The notes below the pieces were generated by a model, which made no database searches, was not told the origin of the DNA, and saw nothing but the letters and a program-made list of their open reading frames with translations. A stretch of 64,000 bases of DNA, taken from contig JAFLBJ010000001.1 in NCBI GenBank assembly GCA_017303415.1, positions 1,922,001 to 1,986,000 on the forward strand. The letters are read 5' to 3'. The position numbers and the translations under genes are program-made. The DNA is from Chitinophagales bacterium. Its GTDB lineage: Bacteria; Bacteroidota; Bacteroidia; Chitinophagales; Chitinophagaceae. Shown here piece after piece: positions 30,726-36,906 of this stretch. The number at the start of each line of letters is the position of its first letter. Positions within the stretch are counted from its first letter, which is position 1.

Positions 30726-31523
30726 ATGTGCTACTACAACGGTCAAAAAGTAACCCACGCTGAGTACATACGTCTCAAACACCTGGAAAAGGCAGTGGCA
30801 AAATATGACTTCCTTATACGTGATCTCCAGGTAGGGTTTGATTATAATAAGAACGCAGTACTGAAACCCATCCCGGGCCAGGAGGATTTTGATATTGTGC
30901 AAATGGAATGGGGCTTTATATTCCCCAACCTCAGAACAAGGGACGATGTACATAAACTTCGATTAGGGTATAAAGATGCCAGAGGTTTTTTCAAACCTCC
31001 GATCATGACCCTCAATGCGGTTGCCGAGGAAATGCTTCTTCCGAATAAAGTGTACCGCGATGCCGCCCTTCACCGTCGTTGCCTCGTTCTCTCCAGCGGC
31101 TTTTATGAGTGGCGCCATATATACCGAACAAATAAAAGAACGGGCGAACCCCTGAAGACGCCCGATAAGTACCCTTATTTTATTAAGGTAAAAGACAAGG
31201 AGTATTTTTATATGGCAGGAATCTGGCAGCCCTGGACCGACAAAGCCACCGGCGAATATGTTGAGAGTTTTGCCATTGTTACAACGGCGGCAAACGCACT
31301 CATGGAGAAAATACATAACAGTAAAAAAAGAATGCCCGCCATTCTTTCTGAAGACCTTGCCTGGGAATGGTTATTCGGCAACCCGGATGAAAAAAGAATT
31401 ACGGATATCGCCATGACACCATTTCCCGCAGAACAAATGGAAGCCTATACGATAGCTAAAGATTTCCGCGATTCTCTGGAGCCGACGAAGAGGGTGGAGT
31501 ATGAGGAGCTTCGTGAGGCGTGA
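30726..31523 (+). CDS. SOS response-associated peptidase, YedK/HMCES-like (SRAP)
   Basis: A 265-residue SRAP protein. SRAP proteins form a covalent link with abasic sites in single-stranded DNA. The key residues are all visible: Cys2 directly after Met1 (MCYYNGQKV), Asn97 in the TLNAVAEE motif, Glu128 in GFYEW, and His197 in EKIHNSKKRMPAIL. It lies five bases after the 84-residue gene, and it faces the dinB-dnaE pair across a repeat array. Its last codons (R-E-A and the TGA stop at 31521-31523) already lie inside the first repeat units. Confidence 0.93.
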   Translation: MCYYNGQKVTHAEYIRLKHLEKAVAKYDFLIRDLQVGFDYNKNAVLKPIPGQEDFDIVQMEWGFIFPNLRTRDDVHKLRLGYKDARGFFKPPIMTLNAVAEEMLLPNKVYRDAALHRRCLVLSSGFYEWRHIYRTNKRTGEPLKTPDKYPYFIKVKDKEYFYMAGIWQPWTDKATGEYVESFAIVTTAANALMEKIHNSKKRMPAILSEDLAWEWLFGNPDEKRITDIAMTPFPAEQMEAYTIAKDFRDSLEPTKRVEYEELREA

Positions 31524-31857
31524 GGCGTGAGACGTGAGACGTGAGGCGTGAGTTTCGTGAGACGTGAGACGTGAGTTTCGTGAGACGTGAGACGTGAGTT
31601 TCGTGAGTTTCGTGAGACGTGAATAGTGAATGGTGAATAGTGAATAGTGAATAGTGAATAGTGAATAGTGAATAGTGAAACTTAAACTTAAACCCTATAT
31701 CTTACATCCCAAAATATTTTCTCATTACTTATTACTTATTTCTCATTTCTCATTTCTCACCATTCACTATTCACTATTCACTATTCACGTCTCACGAAAC
31801 TCACGTCTCACGTCTCACGCCTCACGTCTCACGCCTCACGTCTCACGAAACTCACGC
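31512..31857. repeat. Inverted array of 7-mer (and 9-mer) repeats between SRAP and dinB
   Basis: Left arm 31512-31678: units CGTGAGG, CGTGAGA and CGTGAGTTT, then eight or nine AGTGAAT-type units. Right arm 31730-31857 carries the same units in reverse complement (CACGTCT, CACGCCT, CACGAAACT, ATTCACT). The arms are similar enough to fold into a long stem around an A/T-rich spacer (about 31679-31729). It fills the only stretch above 300 bases without a gene (31524-31851). Function unknown; it may act as a bidirectional transcription end. Confidence 0.85.
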
Positions 31858-33003
31858 CCCCGCCCCCCTTCCCACCTTCCCCTCCCCAAATTGCCGCTTG
31901 ATTCTGTCGATCGCCTGGTAGAGGCGGATGGATTCCTGGGTGTCTTCGAAAAGATTGATTTGATAGGTGCCGGGAATAAGATGGGTAAAGCGTACCCCGA
32001 TCAACCGCACCAACTGGCGGCGTGAGTAAAGTTGGGCAAATAGCGCGCATACTGTTTTAAGCAACACATGATCGGCATTGGTATATGGCACCGCGCGTTG
32101 AAGGGTATGTGTTTCAAAGTCGGCGTAGCGGATCTTGACGGTGATACAACCCGTGAGACGATCCTGGCTTCGGAGTTCAAACGCGATATGCTCGGTCATA
32201 CGCACCAAATGGCTGTGGAGGAACTCGGTGTCGGTGGTGTCGGATGAAAAGGTGTTCTCGGTCGAAATGGATTTTTGTTCGCGGTAGGGGATAACAGGTG
32301 TTTCATCGATCCCATTCGCGCGTCGCCAGAGCTCGGTGCCATTTTTCCCTAACAGGTTTTGCAATAGTTCCACAGGTATATCACTCAGCAGTTTGACGGT
32401 CTCTACCCCCATTTTGATCAACTTATACCCGGTCTCTTTTCCAATACCCGGTATTTTCAATACACTCAGTGGCGCGAGAAAACTTTTTTCTTCGCCAAAA
32501 GGTATCTCGATCTGTCCGTTGGGTTTTACCTCATTGGTGGCCACTTTGCTGATGAGTTTGTTACTCGCAAGCCCGTAGGAGATTGGGAGACCTGTTTCCT
32601 TGTTCACTTTTTGTTTTAGCTCCCGGGTAAAAAGGCTGCAGCCAAAGAACCGGTCCATACCCGTGAGGTCCACATAGAACTCATCAATACTGGCTTTTTC
32701 AAACAAGGGGACAGTATCGGCGATCACTTCGGTCACGGCGCTGGAAGCCTTGCTGTAGGCTTCATAATCGCCACGCACCACAATGGCTTCTTTGCATAAA
32801 CGCAGGGCAACACGCATGGGCATGGCACTGTGGATCCCAAAGCGGCGGGCTTCATAACTACAGGCCGCCACCACACCGCGGTCACTACCTCCGCCAATGA
32901 GCAGGGGTTTGCCGCGTAACTTCGGATTGCGTTGCTGCTCCACCGATACAAAAAAAGCATCGAGGTCAAGATGGGCGATATGACGTTTGGGGTCGAGGAA
33001 CAT
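31852..33003 (-). CDS. dinB: DNA polymerase IV (Y family)
   Basis: A 383-residue Y-family polymerase from the ATG at 33003. Catalytic carboxylates are present (HLDLDAFF with Asp13; SIDEFYVD with Asp107 and Glu108), so this is an active-looking DinB, unlike the catalytically dead ImuB proteins that often sit beside DnaE2. The helix-hairpin-helix LKIPGIGKETGYKLI and little-finger region follow. The start four bases after the dnaE stop suggests a two-gene operon. A frame extension to 33075 overlaps dnaE and has no family match. The TGA stop lies in a 7-mer repeat unit. Confidence 0.93.
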   Translation of the reverse strand: MFLDPKRHIAHLDLDAFFVSVEQQRNPKLRGKPLLIGGGSDRGVVAACSYEARRFGIHSAMPMRVALRLCKEAIVVRGDYEAYSKASSAVTEVIADTVPLFEKASIDEFYVDLTGMDRFFGCSLFTRELKQKVNKETGLPISYGLASNKLISKVATNEVKPNGQIEIPFGEEKSFLAPLSVLKIPGIGKETGYKLIKMGVETVKLLSDIPVELLQNLLGKNGTELWRRANGIDETPVIPYREQKSISTENTFSSDTTDTEFLHSHLVRMTEHIAFELRSQDRLTGCITVKIRYADFETHTLQRAVPYTNADHVLLKTVCALFAQLYSRRQLVRLIGVRFTHLIPGTYQINLFEDTQESIRLYQAIDRIKRQFGEGKVGRGAGA

Positions 33004-33007
33004 GTGA

Positions 33008-35950
33008 TCAGAGATAAGGTCTTTTTTTATAGGCCACTCTTTCCATACGCCGTACTTCCAGGCTGTACACGCCAAAATCCTCTACAACTTTTCCCGTGAT
33101 GCGATAAAACCCACTTGTGTGCAAGGGATAGTTTTTCGCGGCATCGGGAAAATGGACCGTATCGATCCAGTTCAATTGATCATCCACAAAAGTGCCAAAG
33201 AACATATGGTCGTGATGTTTGGTGACCACATGTTTACGGGCAATGAAATAGGCCAGTACGGTGATGACCTTTCCCAGGTGCTTACCCAGGTCAGCCGCAG
33301 GTACATGAGCAGCGGGATCGGCATCGGCCAGTTCAAAGGGATTGGAGAGCGGGAAACCAAGTATCTCCATCTCGTCATACAGATCATCGATCCGCTGGTC
33401 TTCAAGCAAAGGAAGTTGAAAGGCAAGGGGCGGCTCCTGAAAAAGCGGGGCACTCCCGGCTGCCACAGGCTGGTGTTTTTTTTGCAAAAAATTGGCCTCC
33501 CACAAAAGGGTCTTTTTTGATTTGCCCGTGAACCGGAAGGCGCCGATGCTCACCAATGTGTTCAATTGTTCCAGACCGGGGTTCACCCGCTCAATAAAAT
33601 CCTGGAGGTGTAGATAAGGACCGTGTTCCTTTCTATCTTCGAGCAATTGCTCCACCAGTTTATCCTGCAGGCCTTTGATATGGATAAATCCGGTGTACAC
33701 TTCATCGCCTTTTATATTGGTGTATTGCTCACTATGGTTTACACAGGGGGCCTTGATCTGTCCGCCGGTTTTGAGCAGTTCCAGAAAATACAGTTCGCGG
33801 GAATAGAAACCCCCGAAATTATTGATCACCGCTACCATGAATTCTTTGGGGAAATAGGTCTTGAGGTAAAGACTCATATAACTCTCCACTGCAAAGGACG
33901 CGGAGTGGGCCTTGTTGAAACTGTACCCCGCAAAACTTTCCATCTGTCGCCAGATCTCGGCGGTGAGTGTTTCGTCACGACCCAGGGCCTTGGCCGACAA
34001 AAAGAACTCTTCGCGTATCTGGCGGAAATGATTGTGCGAACGGTATTTCCCACTCATCGCCCGGCGTAGGATATCGGCTTTGCCCAAACTCAACCCGCCA
34101 TAATAATGTGCGATCTTGATCACATCTTCCTGAAAGACCATGACGCCAAAGGTCTCCGACAAATGTTCTTCAAACAGCGGATGGAGGTATTTGACCTCAT
34201 CACGGTGGTGGTAGCGGTAAATGTATTCGCGCATCATACCCGATTGGGCTACGCCCGGACGTATGATCGATGAAGCCGCGACAAGGGTGATGTAATCATC
34301 ACAATGGAGTTTTTTGAGGAGTTGCCGCATGGCAGGTGATTCAATATAGAAGCAGCCAATGGTGTTGGCCTCGCGTATCTGCACCTTGATCTGCTCATCT
34401 TCGCGAAAGCGTTTGAAATCATGGATATCAATGTCGATGCCCTTGTTGAGTTTGACCAGGCGAAGGGTTTCTTTGATATGCCCCAGTCCCCGCTGACTCA
34501 GCACATCGAATTTATTCAACCCGATATCCTCGGCCGTGAACATATCCATCAGTGCGGTGGGGAAACCCTTGGGGGGAAGAAACAGGCTTGTATAGCGAAG
34601 GATAGGTTGTTGCGCGATCAGCATACCACAGGGATGGATGGAAGGGTGGGAGGGAAAACCCTGGAGCAGGGCCCCGTATTGGAAGATCCATTTGGCATAA
34701 CGGTCATGTGTGTGCGGATAACGCTGCAGGGTCTTGATCTCCTCATCCGGCAGGCCAAATACTTTTCCCAGTTGCCGCACGATGGCATCTTGCTTGAAAG
34801 TTGGGAAGGAGCCCAGCAGGGCGACATAGGCATGCCCATACCGTTTGAAGAGATAATCCATCACCTCATCGCGGTCGGTCCAGGAGAAATCAATATCAAA
34901 ATCCGGCGGCGAGGTCCGCTCCGGATTAAGGAACCGTTCGAAATAGAGGTTGAGTTCAATGGGATCGACATCGGTGATGCCGAGGCAATAGGCCACAATG
35001 GAATTGGCGCCACTGCCTCTGCCCACATAATAGTAACCCTGTGATTGGGCAAAACGCACCATATCGTGGTTGATCAGGAAATAGGCAGTAAACCCCAGGT
35101 CGCTGATCACCTTGAGTTCGTTGTACAGCCTTCTTAACGCTTCCGCATTCTTTAACCCAAAGCGTCTTTTTAATCCTGACAGAGCGAGTTTTTCCAGTAA
35201 CACTTTATCATCGGCTTCCGAACCACCAAACTGGCGTTTGGTTTTATCGGTATGAAAATTCATGTCCAACCGGCAACTGTCCATCAGTTTGTAGGTATTG
35301 GTCACCAGCCAGGGGTATTGCCTGAACTGTTGCAGGAGGTTTTCCGGGGAAATAAATATTTCATCGGGTTGACAACATTCCTCCGGAGGGAGTTTGGAGA
35401 GAAGGGTATTCAAATCAATGGCACGCAAGAGCCGGTGGAGATTGTAATGCGCTTTTCCTTGTACCGTCACGGGTTGAAGGATCACGAATTTCTCAGCATG
35501 GAGTTTCCAGTCAAGACCAAAAAGTTTGGTGAGTTCGGTGGCCCTTACCCCGATCCGTTCATTGGGGAGTAGCTCACCCGGGTTTTTTCGCCCTAAGGGA
35601 AACACGACAAAGCCATCCCAGCTTTCATCAAAAAAGCGATCCGGGTTTTCGGGAAAATCTTTTTTCCCCATCAGGTGTTCCGATAAAAAGCGGTGTATCC
35701 AGGTCAGCCCCCGGTCATTTGCCGCGAGCAGGATATACAAGACCTCGCGGCCATTGCGGATCTCCGTTCCGGCAATGGGGTTGATGCCCTGTTCGCGACA
35801 CAGTTTCACAAATTCCCAGATATCATAGGTGGAGTTGATATTGGTGAGCGCCAGGGCGGTCACGCCTTTCTCCACGGCAGCGCGCACCAGTTCGTCTGTC
35901 GAATACGTGCCATATTTAAAGCTGAAATAGGTCTTGCAGTTGAGGTACAT
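33008..35950 (-). CDS. DNA polymerase III alpha-like, short DnaE (probable translesion DnaE)
   Basis: A 980-residue C-family polymerase, shorter than the usual replicative DnaE (about 1150-1250). The PHP domain start reads NCKTYFSFKYG where active forms have HVHSEYS, so its metal-binding histidines are absent. The palm motif PDFDID is present (Asp352 and Asp354 as catalytic acids) with the upstream GRGSGANS phosphate loop, followed by finger, beta-binding and OB-like regions. It is paired with an active dinB and preceded by a perfect inverted repeat, which suggests damage-inducible expression. Roles in translesion synthesis are inferred from this context. Confidence 0.9.
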   Translation of the reverse strand: MYLNCKTYFSFKYGTYSTDELVRAAVEKGVTALALTNINSTYDIWEFVKLCREQGINPIAGTEIRNGREVLYILLAANDRGLTWIHRFLSEHLMGKKDFPENPDRFFDESWDGFVVFPLGRKNPGELLPNERIGVRATELTKLFGLDWKLHAEKFVILQPVTVQGKAHYNLHRLLRAIDLNTLLSKLPPEECCQPDEIFISPENLLQQFRQYPWLVTNTYKLMDSCRLDMNFHTDKTKRQFGGSEADDKVLLEKLALSGLKRRFGLKNAEALRRLYNELKVISDLGFTAYFLINHDMVRFAQSQGYYYVGRGSGANSIVAYCLGITDVDPIELNLYFERFLNPERTSPPDFDIDFSWTDRDEVMDYLFKRYGHAYVALLGSFPTFKQDAIVRQLGKVFGLPDEEIKTLQRYPHTHDRYAKWIFQYGALLQGFPSHPSIHPCGMLIAQQPILRYTSLFLPPKGFPTALMDMFTAEDIGLNKFDVLSQRGLGHIKETLRLVKLNKGIDIDIHDFKRFREDEQIKVQIREANTIGCFYIESPAMRQLLKKLHCDDYITLVAASSIIRPGVAQSGMMREYIYRYHHRDEVKYLHPLFEEHLSETFGVMVFQEDVIKIAHYYGGLSLGKADILRRAMSGKYRSHNHFRQIREEFFLSAKALGRDETLTAEIWRQMESFAGYSFNKAHSASFAVESYMSLYLKTYFPKEFMVAVINNFGGFYSRELYFLELLKTGGQIKAPCVNHSEQYTNIKGDEVYTGFIHIKGLQDKLVEQLLEDRKEHGPYLHLQDFIERVNPGLEQLNTLVSIGAFRFTGKSKKTLLWEANFLQKKHQPVAAGSAPLFQEPPLAFQLPLLEDQRIDDLYDEMEILGFPLSNPFELADADPAAHVPAADLGKHLGKVITVLAYFIARKHVVTKHHDHMFFGTFVDDQLNWIDTVHFPDAAKNYPLHTSGFYRITGKVVEDFGVYSLEVRRMERVAYKKRPYL

Positions 35951-35961
35951 AGGGAAGGCTA

Positions 35962-36008
35962 AACTACTAAAATATTTAGTAATAAATATACTAAATATTT
36001 TAGTAGTT
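35962..36008. promoter_or_regulatory. Double palindromic operator candidate upstream of dnaE-dinB
   Basis: The perfect 20-bp inverted repeat AACTACTAAAATATTTAGTA (35962-35981) and TACTAAATATTTTAGTAGTT (35989-36008) is split by ATAAATA. Each arm contains its own 17-bp palindrome, TACTAAAATATTTAGTA and TACTAAATATTTTAGTA, centred 24 bp apart. The block ends 11 bases before the dnaE ATG, so it probably overlaps the promoter. Confidence 0.75.
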
Positions 36009-36027: not shown

Positions 36028-36141
36028 GTTGGATGTTGGGTGTTGGATGACGGATGACGGATGACAGATGACGGATGACGGATGACGGATGTTGGATGTT
36101 GGATGTTGGAGGTTGGAGGTTGGAGGTTGGAGGTTGGAGGT
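36028..36141. repeat. Tandem 7-mer array upstream of dnaE
   Basis: About 16 units in direct tandem: GTTGGAT, GACGGAT (six copies, one with GACAGAT), GTTGGAT again, then GTTGGAG (five copies). No inverted partner is seen beyond the array. It lies between the double operator and the tRNA terminator. Apparent reading frames through it are low-complexity artefacts. Confidence 0.8.
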
Positions 36142-36150
36142 TTCTTTTCA

Positions 36151-36816: not shown

Positions 36817-36906
36817 TGTGGGGGCTTCGTACTGAATATTTTAACAAATAACCATAGTTTCGGTTACAAAAATAGGCCCTTCGTTTACAAATAAAGGAAT
36901 CACAGC

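Follow-up and report, generated by a model that had tools for sequence, protein, structure and literature searches.

A double palindrome before dnaE-dinB in a Chitinophagaceae bacterium consists of two Bacteroidetes SOS repressor boxes at a recurrent spacing

We report that the double palindrome preceding the dnaE-dinB operon of a Chitinophagaceae bacterium is two copies of a published Bacteroidetes SOS repressor box, CTAA-N5-TTAG, and that it is ordinary in kind; a known SOS system has a further member here. The less expected part, which is added here to the known system, is that in related bacteria the boxes are paired 22-24 bp apart at many repair genes. Taken as a whole and including the mechanism, the element is very probably best explained as tandem operators for a Bacteroidetes non-canonical LexA that is encoded in trans and controls dnaE-dinB. 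This explanation builds on the sites, the regulon, the repressor signature and the conserved spacing described below.

The double palindrome, its boxes and the regulon

The features referred to are listed here; "window" denotes the whole 64-kb stretch of DNA that was analysed, and coordinates are those of the window unless stated otherwise.

33008-35950, minus strand: dnaE, DNA polymerase III alpha subunit of the error-prone type, leading the operon (Pfam DNA_pol3_alpha, DNA_pol3_finger, HHH_6, PHP)
31852-33075, minus strand: dinB-like Y-family polymerase, its frame overlapping the dnaE end; the true start may be within the frame (Pfam IMS, IMS_C)
35967-35979: proximal LexA box CTAA-AATAT-TTAG, exact CTAA-N5-TTAG, within the arm 35962-35981
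35991-36003: distal LexA box CTAA-ATATT-TTAG, exact CTAA-N5-TTAG, within the arm 35989-36008, 24 bp from the proximal box
36028-36142, 31512-31679 and 31785-31847: heptanucleotide arrays
G000:C1:1545627-1546373 (this genome): HTH_3 + Peptidase_S24 repressor of the non-canonical LexA type (Pfam)

Positions 35962-36008 read AACTACTAAAATATTTAGTA-ATAAATA-TACTAAATATTTTAGTAGTT. The 20-bp arms (35962-35981 and 35989-36008) are perfect reverse complements with 7 bp between them, and 11 bp separate the structure from the dnaE start codon (ATG at 35950, minus strand), just as an earlier note on this DNA had described the inverted repeat. Because the 7-bp middle is non-palindromic, the whole 47-bp block is only 40/47 self-complementary. 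Within the arms lie two 17-mers (35965-35981 and 35989-36005; 24 bp from centre to centre) which the same note had taken for palindromes; this stands for the perfect 6+6 dyad, TACTAA/TTAGTA, that flanks five bases in each, but not for the full length, where a 17-mer shows three mismatches to its own reverse complement. Allowing up to three mismatches the 17-mer has five matches in the window versus 0.23 expected, a number reached in 0 of 100 shuffles, and elsewhere in the 3.7-Mb genome it has no match with fewer than three mismatches. A candidate further site at 36830-36846, before an hscB-like gene, was rejected as weak (three mismatches, not CTAA-N5-TTAG).

The core of both arms is exactly CTAA-N5-TTAG, so the suggested two-site layout with centres 24 bp apart corresponds to two exact boxes at that distance; the proximal one ends 16 bp from the dnaE start codon. 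Complementarity between the two boxes is complete, extending to the nine variable (spacer and flank) positions. None of the 18 relatives compared shows this, which makes such complementarity unusual among the 19 promoters.

Two motifs have been published for the Bacteroidetes 'non-canonical LexA', and CTAA-N5-TTAG is one of them (Sanchez-Osuna et al. 2021, PMC8565304). In that work the P. actiniarum repressor WP_025606010.1 bound the motif in vitro (EMSA with mutants), binding was lost when either dyad was mutated or the length of the spacer was changed, and RT-qPCR in other species showed mitomycin C induction of predicted genes. The reported regulon comprises dinB, recA, recN, umuDC, ruvB, splB and imuA-imuB-dnaE2, several promoters have two or more sites, and Chitinophagaceae is among the families with large regulons (PMC8565304). 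The earlier idea of a damage-inducible system without a known LexA box was therefore abandoned, the core being this published, EMSA-tested motif; the element is part of an SOS system already on record, which removes the supposed unknown.

There are 14 exact CTAA-N5-TTAG sites in the 3.7-Mb genome, and seven of these are no more than 100 bp ahead of one of five SOS operons: one each at recA (approximately 56 bp before the gene), umuDC (with a divergent LigT-splB pair on the opposite side of the site) and ruvB (a single box, 13 bp before the gene), and two each at the S24 repressor gene and dnaE-dinB. By chance approximately 0.002 sites would be expected in 5 x 100 bp of promoter versus the seven seen, where the five promoters were picked after looking, which leaves the conclusion unaffected. 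None of the other seven precedes a recognisable SOS gene, and none has a partner at 22-24 bp (≤1 mismatch); recA and umuD each have a one-mismatch partner box at 23 bp. The same box thus precedes core SOS genes of the same genome (recA, umuDC, ruvB). The earlier note had argued for SOS-type control through a two-site operator and had proposed a genome search for like sites, and both gain from the boxes found before recA, umuDC and the lexA-like gene.

The regulator had been predicted to act in trans, with no LexA- or S24-type gene seen in the window. No S24 gene was found within the 64 kb, and the S24 repressor gene indeed lies outside, preceded by two boxes 22 bp apart. Pfam assigns HTH_3-type domains to this repressor, and the canonical LexA winged HTH (PF01726) is absent from it. 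Using Pfam Peptidase_S24, two S24 domains were detected in the genome, i.e., those of the repressor and a UmuD, and only one gene combines HTH and S24. The Ala-Gly, Ser and Lys self-cleavage signature is intact in 30 of 30 sequences (the repressor and its 29 closest homologues).

The system thus resembles the Bacteroidetes non-canonical LexA in its identical box, in the regulon (recA, umuDC, ruvB, dinB, splB, dnaE2) and in an HTH_3 + S24 repressor with Ala-Gly and Ser-Lys whose own gene is preceded by the box; it differs in the order dnaE-dinB with no adjoining imuA and in having two perfect boxes, spaced by 24 bp, each the exact reverse complement of the other. As in the imuA-imuB-dnaE2 cassette under canonical LexA, a dnaE2-type alpha subunit and a Y-family polymerase share an operon controlled by damage, whereas the repressor here does not belong to the winged-HTH LexA type and the box bears no relation to CTGT-N8-ACAG. 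Another alpha subunit, of 1226 aa, is encoded elsewhere in the genome.

Conservation and spacing of the boxes in relatives

The comparison set consisted of 59 organism-named dnaE loci together with whole-genome relatives. Nearly all dnaE-first Chitinophagaceae loci have a box before dnaE, and at dinB-first loci (Pedobacter, Parapedobacter and others) the boxes are before dinB; the operator therefore moves with whichever gene leads the operon, which is how a promoter element should behave. Locus L048 and the Chitinophagaceae loci L052-L054 (dnaE less than approximately 57% identical) have no box before dnaE, while at L089 the box is 246 bp before the aligned start, which is not a start codon. 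No exact box was found near dnaE or dinB in Saprospiraceae, a Chitinophaga pinensis MAG, Moheibacter and Fulvivirga, and the dnaE promoters of several relatives have one box only.

In two-box dnaE-first Chitinophagaceae loci the spacing is mostly 22, 23 or 24 bp, and all partner boxes at dnaE (≤1 mismatch, within 40 bp) are 22-24 bp away. At the lexA-like gene of 30 relatives (boxes at ≤1 mismatch) the distance is 22 bp in seven cases, 23 bp in 13 and 24 bp in three, with four other distances occurring once each. Exact box pairs 13-43 bp apart are present in 107 of the 195 Chitinophagaceae genomes searched. Among the matches listed for these 195 genomes, which are related and hence not independent, 51 of 67 exact pairs are at 22-24 bp, counting repeat copies within one genome once. 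The 67 pairs are distributed as follows: 13 bp, one; 18, 19 and 20 bp, two each; 21 bp, four; 22 bp, eight; 23 bp, 29; 24 bp, 14; and 29-33 bp, five. In genomes of the genus g7 the spacing is mostly 18-21 bp.

Away from lexA, the pair precedes recA, umuD, splB or LigT-splB, or dinB-dnaE in 17 of 20 stretches; two of the other three are a repeated transposase-like element, and one is without a recognised SOS gene. Adjacent dyads at a fixed short spacing of 22-24 bp, the lambda OR-like arrangement, are thus found at several promoters, and the linkers between the paired boxes are unrelated across dnaE, lexA, recA, umuDC, splB and dinB. Conserved paired-box spacing was not found in the literature searched.

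At most Pedobacter loci (L105-L133) dinB is preceded by two exact boxes with a spacing of 52-54 bp, or about five helical turns; no consistent third box is present inside these 53-bp pairs. A TAnnTTTG-like -7 element abuts the boxes in some relatives only and not in this genome, and the idea of a shared -7 promoter element in a constant position was accordingly discarded.

Proposed mechanism and alternative readings

The repressor joins a lambda-CI-like HTH to an S24 peptidase of the self-cleaving kind. Two of its dimers would occupy the pair of CTAA-N5-TTAG boxes and so keep the error-prone dnaE-dinB operon from being transcribed. Upon DNA damage, RecA filaments would induce self-cleavage of the repressor at Ala-Gly, and dnaE-dinB would be derepressed along with recA, umuDC, ruvB and the repressor gene. 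Repressor binding and mitomycin induction have been shown by others in relatives, and by analogy both probably apply to this strain.

In phage lambda, OR1 and OR2 are 17-bp operators with a 7-bp spacer, 24 bp centre to centre. The dnaE-dinB promoter is like this pair in its CI-like repressor, its two side-by-side dyad boxes and the equal geometry, and unlike it in serving a cellular SOS regulon, in having two boxes rather than three and in being without a lysis-lysogeny switch. Given the fixed 22-24 bp spacing, the dimers would touch and bind cooperatively, and we consider such contact most likely by analogy with adjacent CI dimers, for which pairwise cooperativity has been described (PMC5880393). 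The term cooperativity is absent from the main text of PMC8565304. Spacing alone is no proof of cooperativity since the lambdoid 933W repressor is reported apparently not to bind adjacent sites cooperatively (PMC3317979).

The reading that competes most seriously with cooperative contact is that the two LexA boxes are independent, i.e., the second adds occupancy only, without contact between dimers, and the spacing reflects room around the promoter. We regard this as credible but on balance doubtful. It is consistent with one-box promoters (ruvB here and dnaE in several relatives), with the 52-54 bp spacing in Pedobacter and with the statement that multiple boxes are common in SOS promoters (PMC8565304), but 22-24 bp recurs with unrelated linkers at dnaE, lexA, recA, umuD, splB and dinB, and room around the promoter is disfavoured as the cause because it would not set one value at so many promoters. 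That the boxes act as a 20-bp-stem RNA hairpin or DNA cruciform (terminator, attenuator or stability element) instead of a protein operator is very improbable. The strand upstream of dnaE does fold strongly here (-24.7 kcal/mol, z -8.3); however, the nine variable box positions in 18 relatives pair at a mean of 3.9 versus 4.1 for shuffled partners, ruvB is preceded by a single box, and recA and umuD have imperfect partners. As pairing between the boxes is no better than shuffled, the long stem is not kept while the dyad of each box is, and judged by these comparisons the long hairpin is neither conserved nor the functional unit.

Binding by some other phage-type repressor instead of the SOS repressor is likewise highly unlikely: phage repressors are often of the HTH_3 type, but the sole HTH + S24 gene in the genome (Pfam Peptidase_S24) has these boxes before itself, and its close homologues likewise carry boxes before their own genes.

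Returning to cooperative tandem operators, the arrangement might extend to the entire Chitinophagaceae SOS regulon, such that CI-type LexA dimers would bind cooperatively to lambda-OR-like operators at 22-24 bp (dnaE-dinB, lexA, recA, umuDC, splB) and give a steeper damage switch than a single-box LexA; we put this forward tentatively, at a little short of an even chance. Paired boxes 22-24 bp apart constitute a testable layout rule. The Chitinophagaceae LexA is thought to have descended from phage-type repressors, and the layout allows testing of whether phage-style cooperative repression passed into a cellular stress response.

Operon surroundings, insertion sequences and UmuD

Heptanucleotide tandem arrays (GTTGGAT x16, CGTGAGA, GTGAATA and TCACGTC) are found in the gaps flanking dnaE-dinB and the SRAP gene, and one array lies between tRNA-Leu(CAA) and the double operator, 20 bp upstream of the latter. 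The SRAP/HMCES-type gene (30726-31523) adjoins dnaE-dinB in convergent orientation; with no nearby box at ≤1 mismatch, it was not retained as a regulon member.

Two boxes 22-24 bp apart were also observed directly before the transposase-like frame of a repeated element. Contig ends interrupt most of its copies, which are as follows:

G143: L201, L202, L216-L222, L255, L257-L266
G096: L223, L254
G228: L256, L268, L273, L275

A piece of copy L268 matches the IS1595-type DDE domain PF12762 (E 4e-7). The idea that IS1595 elements carry the double box in general was rejected; since 28 of 30 other best-scoring elements sampled are without an exact box near the frame examined (which for L277 and L282 may not be a transposase), the double box in IS1595 belongs to a sub-lineage only. 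Judged by these matches, the repeated element appears to be a sub-lineage of insertion sequences that the SOS system controls.

The self-cleavage signature is lost in the UmuD of the LexA-controlled umuDC (G000:C1:1044249-1044740). The UmuD sequences compared were:

This genome: L025, L224
Relatives: L225-L253, L212, L213

In the homologues Ser is replaced by Ala and Lys by Arg, and the scissile Gly follows Thr/Asn; both dyad residues are missing in 31 of 33 UmuD sequences and one more is without the Lys only, while the divergent copy L205 is intact. These substitutions suggest that UmuD here is a polymerase V accessory protein unable to self-cleave.
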